Shown piece by piece: positions 9,177-64,000 of a stretch of DNA of 64,000 nt. This stretch comes from Nitrospira defluvii (GTDB lineage: Bacteria; Nitrospirota; Nitrospiria; Nitrospirales; Nitrospiraceae), in NCBI GenBank assembly GCA_000196815.1, contig FP929003.1, forward strand, positions 2,379,501 to 2,443,500, in the 5' to 3' direction. The number at the start of each line of letters is the position of its first letter. Within the stretch, counting starts at the first letter, position 1. The notes under the pieces are model-generated. The model searched no databases, had not been told where the DNA came from, and worked only from the letters and a program-made list of their open reading frames with translations. A program made the translations under genes and the position numbers.

Positions 9177-9206
9177 AAGACTACGAAAGAACGTCGGAAG
9201 CGGGGA

Positions 9207-9431
9207 TCAGTGTCCGCCCTTCTTTTCGTCCTTCTTCTTGTCTTCGCCGAACACGGTCTGGGACAGGTGTCCACCCTTCTTCTCTTCCTTCTTCTTGTCA
9301 TCGCCGAAGAGGGTCTGGGAGAAGTGGCCGCCCTTCTTCTCTTCCTTCTTCTTGTCGTCACCGGCGAACGACGGGGCAGTGAATGCAACGAGAATGGCTG
9401 CCGCTACGAATGCAAATAGAGCACGCTTCAT
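9207..9431 (-). CDS. Small secreted Lys-rich repeat protein
   Basis: 74 residues: a signal peptide (MKRALFAFVAAAILVAF, cleavage near PSFAG), then 2.7 copies of a 19-residue unit of the form GDDKKKEEKKGGH plus FSQTLF or LSQTVF, ending on KGGH. The mature part is nearly all charged residues with three GGH motifs, which could bind metal, but no function is known to me. The chosen ATG has AAGGAGGGG at good spacing; a longer frame to 9515 has no such site. A strong terminator follows, so it is a monocistronic and probably well expressed gene. Confidence 0.8.
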   Translation of the reverse strand: MKRALFAFVAAAILVAFTAPSFAGDDKKKEEKKGGHFSQTLFGDDKKKEEKKGGHLSQTVFGEDKKKDEKKGGH

Positions 9432-58633: not shown

Positions 58634-59221
58634 CTATGCGGGCGACTCCGGAAGTAGCCGACAAAATAACTCGACTGTCTTCCGGAATAAAAATAATGCC
58701 GTATCTTGGGGGGAGGCAGCAATGGCAGAAGCCGCAGCCTGTTCAATGGCAGTTCGAGAAATCTCAAATCGATGGACAACGTAGAGCGCATCGTCCAAAT
58801 CAAGCTCAATGCCTCGACGAAGTTTTGCGATCACAAAATCGACCGGCTCCAGCAAACGGATGCGCAGACCCGGATGAGAAACAAGGTCCGTGGCGCGTGC
58901 TCGATACCCTGGCGGCATCGCCACGATGGACCATCCTGAAATGTCCTGCGTGAGATCTGCCGGCACACCTTCATCGGTGAGAAACGTGACCAACGGCTGG
59001 AGTGGGCCGGTGAGTTCGCCGTCCACGTCATTCGTGTAGCGTTCTCGTAGACCATAACATTGCATCGCGAGCGCCCCGACAAGAAGCAAGTCAATCGGCT
59101 GTCCGGTTGTCTTGACGAACTGCTCCAGTAACGCAATCAGACGGTCAGCGGTGATGGTAGGCAAATTGGAGTGCCTCGGCAAAAGTCCGGTAGTCTCGAA
59201 AATCGATCGGCCCTGAATCAT
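58634..59221 (-). CDS. Nucleotidyltransferase-like protein (AbiEii/DUF6036 type)
   Basis: 195 residues. The segment LLLVGALAMQCYGLRERYTNDVDGELTG matches the core of AbiEii/DUF6036 minimal nucleotidyltransferases: a Gly-Ala start, then Thr-x-Asp-x-Asp-like metal residues (TNDVDGE). Related proteins act as toxins in type IV toxin-antitoxin systems or in phage defence. The upstream gene (59145-59480) overlaps it by 77 bases if the ATG at 59221 is used; a TTG at 59164 would reduce the overlap. No ribosome-binding site decides this. Confidence 0.65.
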   Translation of the reverse strand: MIQGRSIFETTGLLPRHSNLPTITADRLIALLEQFVKTTGQPIDLLLVGALAMQCYGLRERYTNDVDGELTGPLQPLVTFLTDEGVPADLTQDISGWSIVAMPPGYRARATDLVSHPGLRIRLLEPVDFVIAKLRRGIELDLDDALYVVHRFEISRTAIEQAAASAIAASPQDTALFLFRKTVELFCRLLPESPA

Positions 59222-59480
59222 CGGGGAGGGGCGCGCGGTTAAACAAATAGGTAATCAGACGACGATACTGCGTGTACCAGCGACAGGCATTGCGATACAC
59301 CGCTTCGAATTCAGGGTCATTCCGCCAGGCCGACCAGTCCGGTTTATCGTTCAGGACGATTTCAAGCCACAGGATGCGACGCCCACGTGGAGTCTGGAGT
59401 GCCTCGTTGATGGAGTCTGTATTGAGATAGGCAGGGAGCAACTTGAATGAGGACGGTGATGGTTGATCGAGGGCAGTCAT
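59145..59480 (-). CDS. Hypothetical partner of nucleotidyltransferase
   Basis: 111 residues, Trp- and Tyr-rich and helical (WLEIVLNDKPDWSAWRNDPEFEAVYRNACRWYTQYRRLITYLFN). No family recognised. Position directly upstream of, and overlapping, the nucleotidyltransferase gene suggests a two-gene unit, possibly with an antitoxin role for this gene; that is inference from arrangement only. Confidence 0.5.
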   Translation of the reverse strand: MTALDQPSPSSFKLLPAYLNTDSINEALQTPRGRRILWLEIVLNDKPDWSAWRNDPEFEAVYRNACRWYTQYRRLITYLFNRAPLPDDSGPIDFRDYRTFAEALQFAYHHR

Positions 59481-60306: not shown

Positions 60307-61836
60307 ATGCCTGACACAGTCGTGCTCAATATCGATCTGGCGGATGTGTGGGCGGAACGGGGTCGGAAGAAGCTGATCCGGACCATTGCCTGGGGCGACG
60401 AAGTCACCTTGTTAAAAGTAGCCGCGACACACCTGGAAGTCGGCATTACCATCTTTCGCGAGAAACCCGACGGCAGCATCCTCCCCGAAGCCATCACCGG
60501 CTATATCGAACCGACAAAATCGTCCCGCATCAAAATCGCCAACCTGACCAGGCCTCTCGCAGACAATCAGGTCTTGAAGGTCAATTTCGTCGATGTCCAG
60601 CAGGGCGACGGCTCAGTGATCGAATCGCCGGACGGGAAGATCGTTCTGGTCGATGGGGGAGACAACCAGATGTTCGCGCGGTACCTGGCCGGCCGATTTC
60701 GAGGGACCACGGCAGAGAACCCCCAACCCATCGACTGCATCCTCGTCACTCACGGAGATGCGGACCATTTCGCAGGCCTTCCAGAAATCCTCAAGTCGGA
60801 AACGAACAACGTGAAGCGCAAACGCTTCTTCATGCAGCCGAAGCGGGTGTATCACAACGGCATCGTGAAACGCCCCAGCAAGATGAACAACAAGACCGTT
60901 CCCGACACCAAGCTGCTGGGGCCGACCAAAACGGTCAACGGACAACTCTACCTCACGGGGCTGGAAGACAATCTGCTCGACGTGGCCGATGCGGACATGA
61001 ACGAGCCGTTTCGAGAATGGAAAAATACCTTAACCACGTACAACAGCCGGAGTGAAGTGAGCTTCCGGCGTCTGCAGTTCGGAGACAATCAGGCCTTTGA
61101 GTTTTTCAACCGGGGTGATCTGCGCATGGAAACCCTTGGGCCGCTCACCACAACCGTGGGCGGACAACCGGCGCTGAAATTTCTCGGAGAGCCGCCGAAA
61201 GGACCGAGAATCGGGCATGACTCGCTGAGCGAGACCGACGAAGGCTTCACCGGCCACTCCGCCTCCCACACCATCAACGGCCACTCGATCGTGTTCCGTC
61301 TGGTCTACGGCGGGTTCAGCTTCCTGTTTTCCGGCGATCTCAACGATGAAGCCAGCCGGACTCTGGCGCGGGAACACAACCGGGGCAACCTGAACCTGAG
61401 GTCGGAGGTGTTCAAGGTGCCGCATCATGGGTCGGCCGATTTCTCCGGCGCGTTCATTCAAGCCGTCTCGCCGATCGTGAGCGTCGTGTCGAGCGGGGAC
61501 GAGAGCGCCCGCAAGGAATACATCCATCCGCGAGCCACACTCATGGGAGCCCTTGGCAAATGGTCCCGCGTGCCCGAGCCGCTCATCTTCGTCACCGAAT
61601 TGGTCGCGTTCTTTGAGGAGGAGGGGCCGTCCCGCCTGCAGGACGAGAAGAAGGCCAAAAAACGAGGGCCGTTCTACGGATTCAGCCGCACCGCTTACGG
61701 CCTCGTGAAAACACGCACCGACGGCAAACGCCTGTTCGTCTATACGGACAGCGGCAACGTACAGATGAAAGAGGCCTACGCCTATGACCTGGATTCCTCC
61801 GGAGTACCGCAACCGGCCGAGGTCACCCGCGCATGA
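60307..61836 (+). CDS. ComEC-like MBL-fold hydrolase
   Basis: 509 residues, no transmembrane helices. An N-terminal beta-rich, SH3-like part (about 1-90) precedes a metallo-beta-lactamase domain: NFVDVQQGDGSVIESPDGKIVLVDGG, metal-binding THGDADHFAG, FLFSGDLNDEAS and PHHGSADFSGAF. These match the soluble ComEC-type MBL family, whose relatives act as nucleases and recur in defence islands. AGGGGGG precedes the ATG. The last 10 codons and stop (61807-61836) are duplicated 770 bases downstream, beyond a toxin-antitoxin pair. Confidence 0.8.
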   Translation: MPDTVVLNIDLADVWAERGRKKLIRTIAWGDEVTLLKVAATHLEVGITIFREKPDGSILPEAITGYIEPTKSSRIKIANLTRPLADNQVLKVNFVDVQQGDGSVIESPDGKIVLVDGGDNQMFARYLAGRFRGTTAENPQPIDCILVTHGDADHFAGLPEILKSETNNVKRKRFFMQPKRVYHNGIVKRPSKMNNKTVPDTKLLGPTKTVNGQLYLTGLEDNLLDVADADMNEPFREWKNTLTTYNSRSEVSFRRLQFGDNQAFEFFNRGDLRMETLGPLTTTVGGQPALKFLGEPPKGPRIGHDSLSETDEGFTGHSASHTINGHSIVFRLVYGGFSFLFSGDLNDEASRTLAREHNRGNLNLRSEVFKVPHHGSADFSGAFIQAVSPIVSVVSSGDESARKEYIHPRATLMGALGKWSRVPEPLIFVTELVAFFEEEGPSRLQDEKKAKKRGPFYGFSRTAYGLVKTRTDGKRLFVYTDSGNVQMKEAYAYDLDSSGVPQPAEVTRA

Positions 61837-61866
61837 GGGGCAGGAGGCCTCAAGGCTCTCCGGACG
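61807..61866. repeat. Direct repeat, left copy
   Basis: CCGCAACCGGCCGAGGTCAC followed by CCGCGCATGAGGGGCAGGAG and ending CTCCGGACG. It is repeated at 62574-62634 with few changes. It spans the 3' end and stop codon of the MBL gene. Confidence 0.85.
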
Positions 61867-62027
61867 TGACCTTTCACGAACGACATCTCCCTGATCTAGC
61901 ATGTCTGTGATCAGCGCCGCTTCTCAGAACGGGGTGTCGGAGAATGCCTAAGAGTTGTGTCCGGATGGTCTTCAGACCATAATGCATCTGTTGCATATGT
62001 TGCTGGTGGGTTGAAAAGGAGGCATCG

Positions 62028-62228
62028 ATGTCGACGGCGGAGAAAATCTTTAAGGAAGTGCAAAAACTTCCGGACCCTCTCGCGCAAGAAGTTCTGGATT
62101 TCATTGGATACATTGAAATGAAGCATGGCCTCAGGGATCGTCTCACCGAAGAATTGAAACAGGCACAGGAGCCGGCCATGCGCCATGTGTGGGACAACCA
62201 GGACGACGAGGTTTGGAATGGCGTGTAA
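62028..62228 (+). CDS. Antitoxin, DUF2281-like
   Basis: 66 residues. The N-terminus EKIFKEVQKLPDPLAQEVLDFIGYIEMK matches the DUF2281 type of antitoxin; the C-terminal tail is charged and likely binds the toxin (ALKQAQEPAMRHVWD-like helix). AAGGAGG precedes the ATG. Its last codons overlap the toxin gene by 11 bases, the usual arrangement of co-translated pairs. Confidence 0.8.
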   Translation: MSTAEKIFKEVQKLPDPLAQEVLDFIGYIEMKHGLRDRLTEELKQAQEPAMRHVWDNQDDEVWNGV

Positions 62229-62556
62229 GCCAGGAGATCTGGTCTTGATTCCCTTCCCATTTTCGGACCTGCAGGCAACGAAAAAACGTCCAGTGATGGT
62301 TTTGACTCCGCCTGATCGCCACGCTGATTTTATCGGTCTCGCGATCACCACTGTCGAGCAACAACATCACGCCCTCCAAGTGGGGGCGGCCAACTTACTC
62401 GACGGGGCGCTTCCCAAACCCTCATGGATCAGATTAGACAAAGTCTTTACCTTATCCGAGAGCAGTATCGTTAAGACGTTCGGCACCCTTTCTCCGCAAA
62501 CCGTGCACAGTGTGCTGCAGGGACTTTGCGCCGTCGTCGGTTACGCCAAAAGATAA
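62218..62556 (+). CDS. MazF/PemK-type toxin
   Basis: 112 residues. MACKPGDLVLIPFPFSD, KKRPVMVLTP and the later WIRLDKVFTL segment identify the PemK/MazF endoribonuclease family, which cleaves mRNA when antitoxin is degraded. The active-site-type Arg in KKRPVMVL is present. ATG 62218 overlaps the antitoxin end; a longer frame from 62185 is rejected. The pair is framed by 60-base direct repeats. Confidence 0.85.
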   Translation: MACKPGDLVLIPFPFSDLQATKKRPVMVLTPPDRHADFIGLAITTVEQQHHALQVGAANLLDGALPKPSWIRLDKVFTLSESSIVKTFGTLSPQTVHSVLQGLCAVVGYAKR

Positions 62557-62573
62557 GCGGCATCCAAACCCAG

Positions 62574-62634
62574 CCGCAACCGGCCGAAGTCACCCGCGCA
62601 TGAGGGGCAGGAGTGGCTCACGGCCCTCCGGACG
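62574..62634. repeat. Direct repeat, right copy
   Basis: CCGCAACCGGCCGAAGTCAC, CCGCGCATGAGGGGCAGGAG and CTCCGGACG, as at 61807-61866. Together they bracket about 707 bases that hold the toxin-antitoxin pair. Confidence 0.85.
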
Positions 62635-62639
62635 AGCTG

Positions 62640-62718
62640 CTTTTCTTCCCCCCCCACGAGATACGCTTCACGAACAGCGCGAGACGGGTATTTGTTCCCC
62701 TGTGACCCCGGATGTCAC
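62640..62718. repeat. Repeat, copy 1 of 27-base end plus family B text
   Basis: CACGAGATACGCTTCACGAA (62655-62674), then TTGTTCCCCTGTGACCCC and GGATGTCAC (62692-62718). The same order recurs at 63239-63300. Confidence 0.75.
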
Positions 62719-62765
62719 GGTCATCGGTTACAGTCGCAGGTGACCGGGCAGAAGAGGAGGGCACT

Positions 62766-63125
62766 ATGCGATCTTTATGGCTTCCAGTGGTACTGCTGCT
62801 GATTCTGGCGTCGACCTCGACAACCTGGGCAGAGCCGGGGTTCGACGAGAAGTACCAGCGGGACTTTAACATCTTCAATCCCATCAACCAGTATCAGCCG
62901 GATAACCCCTTGAACCCCGCCAATGCCTACGATCCGGCAAACCCCTTCAACCCGATCAACCAGTACGATCCCAACAACCCCGCCAATCCCATCAACCAAT
63001 TCAATCCGAACAATCCGTTCAACCCCATCAATCGGTACCGCCCGGAGAATCCGCTGAACCCCATCAATGAGTTCAACCCGACCGTACCGTTTGCGCCGTT
63101 GGGTGGGCCTGGACAGAAGCGCTGA
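62766..63125 (+). CDS. Secreted Asn-Pro repeat protein
   Basis: 119 residues. Signal peptide (SLWLPVVLLLILASTSTTWA, cleavage before EPG), a short charged link (GFDEKYQRDF), then about five 12-residue repeats of the pattern NPxNPINxYxPx or NPxNPANxYDPA (for example NPFNPINQYDPN, NPLNPINEFNPT), ending in a Gly/Lys tail. The repeated NP dipeptides should form an extended, turn-rich chain. GAGGAGGG upstream supports the ATG at 62766. No family recognised. It is flanked by 27-base direct repeats. Confidence 0.75.
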   Translation: MRSLWLPVVLLLILASTSTTWAEPGFDEKYQRDFNIFNPINQYQPDNPLNPANAYDPANPFNPINQYDPNNPANPINQFNPNNPFNPINRYRPENPLNPINEFNPTVPFAPLGGPGQKR

Positions 63126-63611
63126 GGCGACTCGTGCCCTTCCCGATCCCGGCGAAAGAGGCTTCACGAACGACGAGCGACGATCTTCCGGATTCCGAGG
63201 TCCTGCTATCTGCCATACGCCATCAGCTTTTGTTTCCGAACGAGATACGCTTCACGAGATACGAGCGGCGAAGTTGTTCCCCTGTGACCCCGGATGTCAC
63301 ACCGCAATGCTAGGGTATGGATGCCGGAGGCAGGGAGGCGAGGGTGCATGACCGGAAACGTGCAGTCTATGGGCGGGTAGGCTTGCTACAGCGGTCAATG
63401 GAAAAACTTGTCACTTCGCAGGCTGATGGAACACGCGCCGTTGTAGAAACACCTCGCACTCCTACCAGTGACTGTACTCAAGGTAGCTGCCCTGAACCTA
63501 GCCATTCAACAGGGTGATTTCTTGGCACGAAAGCAGGTATTCTTCGCCGGCGCGACCTGGCAGATTTGATCTGACAGCGATCCTCTTCTCCTGACCAAGA
63601 GGCCGATTCAC
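63126..63611. other. Gap with repeats before hsdM
   Basis: 486 bases. The left part (63150-63300) is repeat B/C text and the 27-base repeat. The rest has no supported gene; a few short frames lack start signals. The region marks the left edge of the restriction-modification locus. Confidence 0.45.
63150..63300. repeat. Repeat B/C text and 27-base repeat, copy 2
   Basis: CTTCACGAACGACGAGCGACG (from 63163), CTATCTGCCATACGCCATCAGC (63210-63231), AACGAGATACGCTTCACGAG (63239-63258) and TTGTTCCCCTGTGACCCC with GGATGTCAC (63274-63300). Confidence 0.7.
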
Positions 63612-64000
63612 ATGGCACTGTCCCTCAACAAACCCAAACTCGACAATCTGGCCGACGAAATTTGGAAGTCCGCCGAACGGCTGCGCGGCAAGTTCAAAGC
63701 CTACGAATACCAGAACGTCATCCTGCCGATTATCGTCATCCGCCGCTTGGAGTGCGTGCTCATCAAATGGCGAGAAGACAAAACAACAGAAGTCCGAGCC
63801 AAGCGTCCGAAACTGACTGAAAAGGAATTGGCCAAGCTCGTCAAAGGCCTCGAACTCACCACGGCGCCGTTTTCGAACAAGACCAATCTGACGCTACGCA
63901 AAGTCTACGAAGAAGAGCCCACACTACTGGATCAGACGTTCAGAAAATACATTAACGGCTTTTCCAAGAACGTGGACGACATCATCGATCACTTTAACTA
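63612..64000 (+). CDS. hsdM: Type I restriction-modification methylase HsdM, 5' fragment
   Basis: 129 residues visible before the window ends. The N-terminal helical domain NLADEIWKSAERLRGKFKAYEYQNVILPIIVIRRLECVLIKW is characteristic of the type I M subunit (N6-adenine methylase), whose SAM-binding motifs would lie beyond the edge. AAGAGG lies upstream of the ATG. hsdS and hsdR presumably follow outside the window. This opens a defence locus. Confidence 0.85.
   Translation, partial: MALSLNKPKLDNLADEIWKSAERLRGKFKAYEYQNVILPIIVIRRLECVLIKWREDKTTEVRAKRPKLTEKELAKLVKGLELTTAPFSNKTNLTLRKVYEEEPTLLDQTFRKYINGFSKNVDDIIDHFN

Follow-up and report, generated by a model that had tools for sequence, protein, structure and literature searches.

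Near the right end of a 64,000-nt stretch of the Nitrospira defluvii genome (the window; contig FP929003.1, positions 2,379,501 to 2,443,500), a gene for an MBL-fold metallo-hydrolase is followed by a two-gene toxin–antitoxin (TA) pair that lies between two direct copies of the hydrolase gene's own 3′ end. The features of this site, and of a tandem array past the window's right end, are as follows.

60307–61836, plus strand: MBL-fold metallo-hydrolase gene, 509 aa (Pfam PF00753, 6e-13); its 3′ end is the duplicated target
61807–61866, plus strand: 5′ copy of the direct repeat, comprising the MBL gene's final 9 codons, its stop and 30 bases beyond
61867–62573, plus strand: apparently inserted cassette, 707 bp, missing at empty (single-copy) congener sites
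61914–62022, plus strand: TA leader, apparently from an hsdR 3′ end, degenerate (..LFPDGLQTII..), by local alignment to the hsdR end of genome G020
61955–61983, plus strand: putative promoter TTGTGT-17-CATAAT with the palindrome GGTCTTCAGACC (61967–61978) between the hexamers, as read from the sequence
62028–62228, plus strand: antitoxin-like gene, DUF2281, 66 aa (PF10047)
62218–62556, plus strand: PemK/MazF-type toxin gene, 112 aa (PF02452)
62574–62634, plus strand: 3′ copy of the direct repeat, an orphan MBL gene end
62635–62740, plus strand: downstream flank, which adjoins the single MBL end in empty congener sites
G000:C1:2450949–2452225 (L114:16800–19711; G000 is the N. defluvii genome itself), minus strand: MFS tandem array, about 7 kb to the right of the window

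The MBL gene has an orthologue in 22 of 28 congeners, and its product showed similarity to the PADLOC LmuA/Avs1a-type MBL protein and to the ComEC MBL domain, in every case far under the NCBIfam cut-offs. The toxin matched PF02452 at 48.2 bits against a gathering cut-off of 23.1, in line with its earlier assignment to the MazF type from sequence alone, and its closest solved chain was MazF6 (E = 0.005). The antitoxin fell slightly under the Pfam cut-off for DUF2281 (PF10047; 1.9e-5, 25.6 bits against 26.5) and was also under cut-off for NCBIfam TA_VapB (5.8e-5). The two reading frames overlap by 11 bases, with the antitoxin gene upstream, and the pair, which is by prediction a type II TA with a PemK/MazF toxin, was kept at 17 other Nitrospiraceae loci (antitoxin identity 85–98%); the named relatives that carry it are Nitrospira. 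A DUF2281 protein that neutralizes VapC is a demonstrated antitoxin (PMC12654330), and a PIN/DUF2281 pair is present in Synechocystis (PMC4963859). As in such systems, the DUF2281-like gene here adjoins a toxin gene, although its partner, unlike that of the VapC/DUF2281 pairs, is PemK/MazF. The functional MazF of Nitrospira ND1, which has a 10.8-kDa MazE (PMC7291052), apparently belongs to another module. Carriage of the TA by a phage or plasmid was considered and rejected, as phage records held no relatives of the toxin and plasmids held distant ones alone (28–37%).

The two repeat copies (61807–61866 and 62574–62634) were 92% identical over 61 columns of a pairwise alignment, with one 1-base gap, and matched at E = 3e-20 when the 800 bp upstream of the TA pair were compared with the 800 bp downstream. 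The sequence-only reading that direct repeats of the MBL gene end surround the TA pair was therefore sound, including its 30 bases past the stop, and needed correction in the coding part, which starts 27 bases before the stop and so spans nine codons plus stop rather than ten. The intervening segment, put at about 707 bases, is exactly 707 bp (61867–62573); the two TA genes are its entire gene content, and no transposase or integrase lies within it. A genome search found two copies of the repeat in the 4.317-Mb single contig, and a partial relic of the repeat and its tail is present at another locus (81% over 128 nt). When all 64 kb of the window were scanned, the MBL pair alone among long, non-tandem direct repeats reproduced the end of a gene and had genes between its copies; the other two long-repeat families were one tandem repeat and one pair of intergenic motif copies.

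Analyses of congeners revealed empty, occupied and decayed versions of the MBL site. Relatives with a single repeat copy and no TA genes, which had been named earlier as the thing to look for, were found in G023, G028, G002, G004 and G019, so possession of both copies is not universal. In G023, G028, G002 and G004, the MBL stop is followed by one repeat copy and then by the flank found after the window's second copy, and shorter versions of the single-copy site occur in G019 and G009. The sequence-only reading had left the choice between insertion and tandem duplication; because the relatives' single copy runs from the MBL stop into the downstream flank, insertion is favoured and tandem duplication is not. 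G018 has the full occupied arrangement, as does G027 with a damaged toxin start, whereas the decayed sites retain the antitoxin and 14 toxin codons (G011) or the antitoxin alone (G010). On an rpoB tree, each of the genus's two deep clades contained sites that are occupied or decayed next to clean single-copy ones, with G002 (clean) beside G010, and G023 and G028 (clean) grouped with G011 at moderate support. The history of the MBL site must therefore include repeated loss, lateral spread or both, and the presence of the TA in both deep clades would reflect either one ancient insertion with many losses or lateral spread. Loss of the cassette by recombination, as had been anticipated, is consistent with this tree, in which clean single-copy sites stand beside occupied or decayed sisters.

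Comparison of three genomes (G000, G018 and G027) gave 90% likeness between the two G000 copies and 73–74% between 3′ copies of different genomes, a difference that would reflect either homogenization or re-insertion; on these three genomes, homogenization of the two G000 copies is suggested. Independent insertions at the MBL end in the three genomes were judged less likely, since the junction layouts resemble each other. An extra spacer of about 75 bp follows the toxin in G018 and at a second locus (locus B) described below; its derivation from an hsdR orphan end seemed plausible by eye and was ruled out by shuffles.

The leader of the TA pair links the MBL site to the type I restriction gene hsdR. 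Its 109 nt aligned to the hsdR end of G020 with a score of 81, about 20 s.d. above dinucleotide shuffles (19 ± 3), and the palindrome GGTCTTCAGACC within it is a possible autoregulatory operator. The same TA lies 3′ of hsdR in a sister genus and in G020, where the HsdR C-terminal segment is present twice, as the in-frame end of hsdR and as an orphan after the toxin. This duplication around the TA was detected in G020 (E = 2e-29) and G114 (1e-24), and also in G057, G088 and G056, with a length put at about 90–150 bp and, in another estimate, at about 90–105 bp. Since a degenerate hsdR 3′ end forms its leader, the window's cassette probably resided behind an hsdR gene first and came to the MBL gene later. 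Among 27 hsdR ends surveyed, a gene-end repeat at E < 1e-5 was found at 9 of 14 loci with an alternative, ..ALVA-type end and at none of 13 with the usual, mostly ..ALAA ends (Fisher p = 6e-4, relatedness ignored), these 13 being single-copy sites without an insert, and no orphan end was found at hsdR loci with TA-type ends in G159, G151, G048 and G050. The slot 3′ of hsdR accommodates DUF2281/MazF, PF09720/ParE, or DUF2281 followed by PF09720/ParE. In G068 and G172 (L191 and L204), the DUF2281 antitoxin 3′ of hsdR is kept and a complete PF09720/ParE pair takes the place of its MazF, as though a second TA had inserted into the first.

The arrangement recurs at other genes and with other TA families, beyond what the sequence-only reading could see. 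Several of the PemK cases belong to a single site, at a gene for an MFS transporter not far from the MBL gene. The N. defluvii array there consists of the MFS gene, an RHH/PemK pair, a 257-nt copy of the MFS end (89% identity), a MazE/MazF pair and a 128-nt copy of the MFS end (89%), so that the duplications at this gene span 128–257 bp. An orphan MFS end was present in all ten TA-bearing genomes (weakly in G025) and in none of the nine with an empty MFS site. The point at which the orphan begins depends on the TA family: MFS nt 880–905 for RHH/PemK in four species (G000, G019, G028 and G007), and nt 990–1007 for MazE/MazF in six genomes. This fixed boundary implies one founding insertion per TA family at the MFS gene, after which each family was presumably inherited or spread by homology. 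The order of the modules varies, with RHH/PemK first in G000 and G023 and MazF first in G028.

At a second locus in G028, G026, G012 and G004, the same TA has a caspase-like gene on one side and a small conserved gene on the other, and after it come the MBL end and tail in degraded form. In N. defluvii, this locus has the MBL tail without the TA, and six other genomes have neither. In a TA tree, the second-locus TAs grouped with the MBL-site TAs (100/100) and the four formed a clade within that group (100/98); the rows for G159, G068 and G172 carry different downstream genes, and their placement was disregarded as meaningless. On the simplest reading, the TA moved to the second locus from the MBL site along with its 3′ flank. 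An 18-base motif, TGTGACCCCGGATGTCAC, is present at the right border of both the MBL locus and the second locus and may have provided microhomology. This motif is palindromic and has five genome copies with at most one mismatch (62701–62718, 63283–63300 and three other places; none for a reversed control), including copies in the leaders of a gene for an NPxNP-repeat secreted protein and of the small conserved gene; it is possibly a binding site of a CRP/FNR-type regulator. The caspase-like (Peptidase_C14) gene adjoining the second locus lies at L115:6353–8074 (G000:C1:1464352–1466073).

We surveyed TA loci of two Pfam families against control loci. With the background rate sampled at chosen loci and related genomes counted as independent, bracketing repeats occurred at 10 of 27 PemK, 3 of 26 ParE and 2 of 18 ZnF loci, and at none of 29 rpoB and ComEC loci; ParE loci in general are not enriched for such repeats. 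Many of the congener genomes are draft assemblies, and those of N. defluvii, G015, G020 and others are single contigs. Further orphan gene ends flank TA-like genes (DUF433/DUF5615, and DUF2283 with a CopG antitoxin) as well as NUDIX and oxidoreductase genes, both of the latter named by eye. The G074 genome has the same TA as the window between the ends of NPxNP-repeat genes, a case of gene-end insertion that we regard as tentative because this gene family is repetitive and multicopy.

The arrangement at the MBL gene could also have arisen in other ways. Islands mobilized by tyrosine recombinases typically target the 3′ ends of genes and restore the gene, and the cassette might thus be the remnant of a larger integrative element (an island or integrative plasmid) whose integrase gene has been lost and whose attL and attR are the repeats; lengths of 60–250 bp are not impossible for att regions. 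The same arrangement is nevertheless found at three or more target genes with unrelated end sequences, with one TA family at two of them, the insert is the TA pair alone in several genomes, and the MFS duplication boundary differs with the TA family, unlike a fixed att site. We therefore consider such an element unlikely. Tandem duplication of a region that already held the TA and the gene end, with later deletion of the second gene body, would likewise yield a gene, a TA pair and an orphan gene end. It is a rather improbable account of empty sites that consist of the gene end and downstream flank without a TA, of orphan copies that hold the gene end alone and start at family-specific points, and of different TA families stacked in differing orders 3′ of the same gene. 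Least probable, and very much so, is that the repeat is an intergenic element dispersed in Nitrospira that flanks the TA by coincidence. Downstream of the 3′ copy there are indeed short motifs with further copies in the genome (TGTGACCCCGGATGTCAC and GAGATACGCTTCACGA), and a relic of the tail exists at another locus; these motifs, however, are outside the 60-base repeat, which itself includes MBL coding sequence, and with two good copies in 4.3 Mb and one partial relic, the genome search ruled this reading out, which disposes of the earlier proviso that the repeat might be a dispersed genomic element.

We favour, with a probability of roughly 0.7, insertion of the TA cassette at the MBL 3′ end with a 60-bp target duplication, as one case of a recurrent Nitrospira process in which TA modules that carry neither integrase nor transposase enter gene 3′ ends. 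The duplication, the empty sites, the repeated occurrence of the arrangement at three genes and for several TA families, stacking, decay and family-specific boundaries are all legible in the genomes compared. By such an insertion, the MBL frame would stay complete through the 5′ copy, and the downstream sequence would keep its original left neighbour through the 3′ copy. For each TA family and gene, the founding insertion would be a rare illegitimate event, perhaps a staggered break with fill-in or one-sided homologous recombination. The gene-end copies would then offer homology for RecA-type recombination, through which cassettes could be lost, copies homogenized, modules stacked at one site and cassettes transferred between strains. 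Among insertions, only those in which the gene end is duplicated would survive selection, since any other would harm the host gene, and addiction to the TA would help to retain them; this suggests a reason for the gene-end location, in that the host gene is spared solely when its end is duplicated.

A bolder version, which we hold only tentatively and consider somewhat doubtful, is an integrase-free system of TA cassettes in which the 3′ end of the host gene acts as a homologous recombination site and cassettes, each with one end copy, enter, stack and leave. The cassettes would probably be circles released by recombination and would insert, stack in varying order and leave through ordinary homologous recombination; through a rare illegitimate event, a cassette could acquire another gene end and hence another address. 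Integron and superintegron arrays hold small cassettes, often TA-bearing, in tandem. The Nitrospira arrays share with them tandem TA cassettes, the same sequence between cassettes and a variable order, but have the coding end of a host gene (MFS) as that intervening sequence, which makes homologous recombination the likely agent.

It has long been asked how solitary TA and restriction–modification modules can move in the absence of a transposase, and long target duplications have so far been inferred mostly for restriction–modification systems, which reportedly insert with long and variable target duplication (work attributed to Nobusato in 2000 and Furuta in 2010, reviewed in PMC3874152). Two sources describe long, variable target duplications of about 100 bp for these systems and argue that they are mobile by themselves (PMC3874152, PMC3031569). 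The Nitrospira cassettes are similar in being self-contained selfish gene pairs without a known mobile element and in being flanked by direct duplications of their target, on the scale of 100 bp, that empty sites make recognizable. Unlike those insertions, the cargo is TA modules, the target is a gene 3′ end with the gene kept intact by duplication, and several TA families use one target and form tandem arrays. In Microcystis aeruginosa, a ParE/ParD-like TA lies 3′ of the orthocaspase gene MaOC1 between identical 152-bp direct repeats, which start 14 bp past the stop codon and carry inverted repeats (PMC7935541). A TA pair directly 3′ of a gene and between long direct repeats is common to both cases, whereas the Nitrospira repeats copy the gene's coding end and have documented empty sites. 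The Peptidase_C14 and TA neighbourhood at the second locus also resembles this protease–TA case, except that the genes diverge. Gene-end duplications common to several TA families, tandem arrays and empty sites appear in neither PMC3874152 nor PMC7935541, as far as the available text of each extends, and the recurrence, the arrays and the TA turnover look new. Within one genus, three gene ends are found with TA modules of several families, in empty, single, stacked, reordered and decayed states; with these states and the fixed family boundaries, founding insertion and later recombination become separately testable.

Other features of the window lie around this site. Positions 62766–63125 encode the secreted NPxNP-repeat protein (..NPINQYNPNNPFNP..), with related genes at several places in Nitrospira, and 63612–64000 covers the first part of hsdM, a type I restriction gene; together with further TA pairs, the MBL, TA and hsdM genes make up a cluster that resembles a defence island. 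Upstream, on the minus strand (58634–59480), a DUF6036 nucleotidyltransferase gene overlaps a small upstream gene without a family match, a layout that resembles a nucleotidyltransferase TA pair. At 9203–9373, three tandem 57-nt repeats are 75–84% alike and probably coding.
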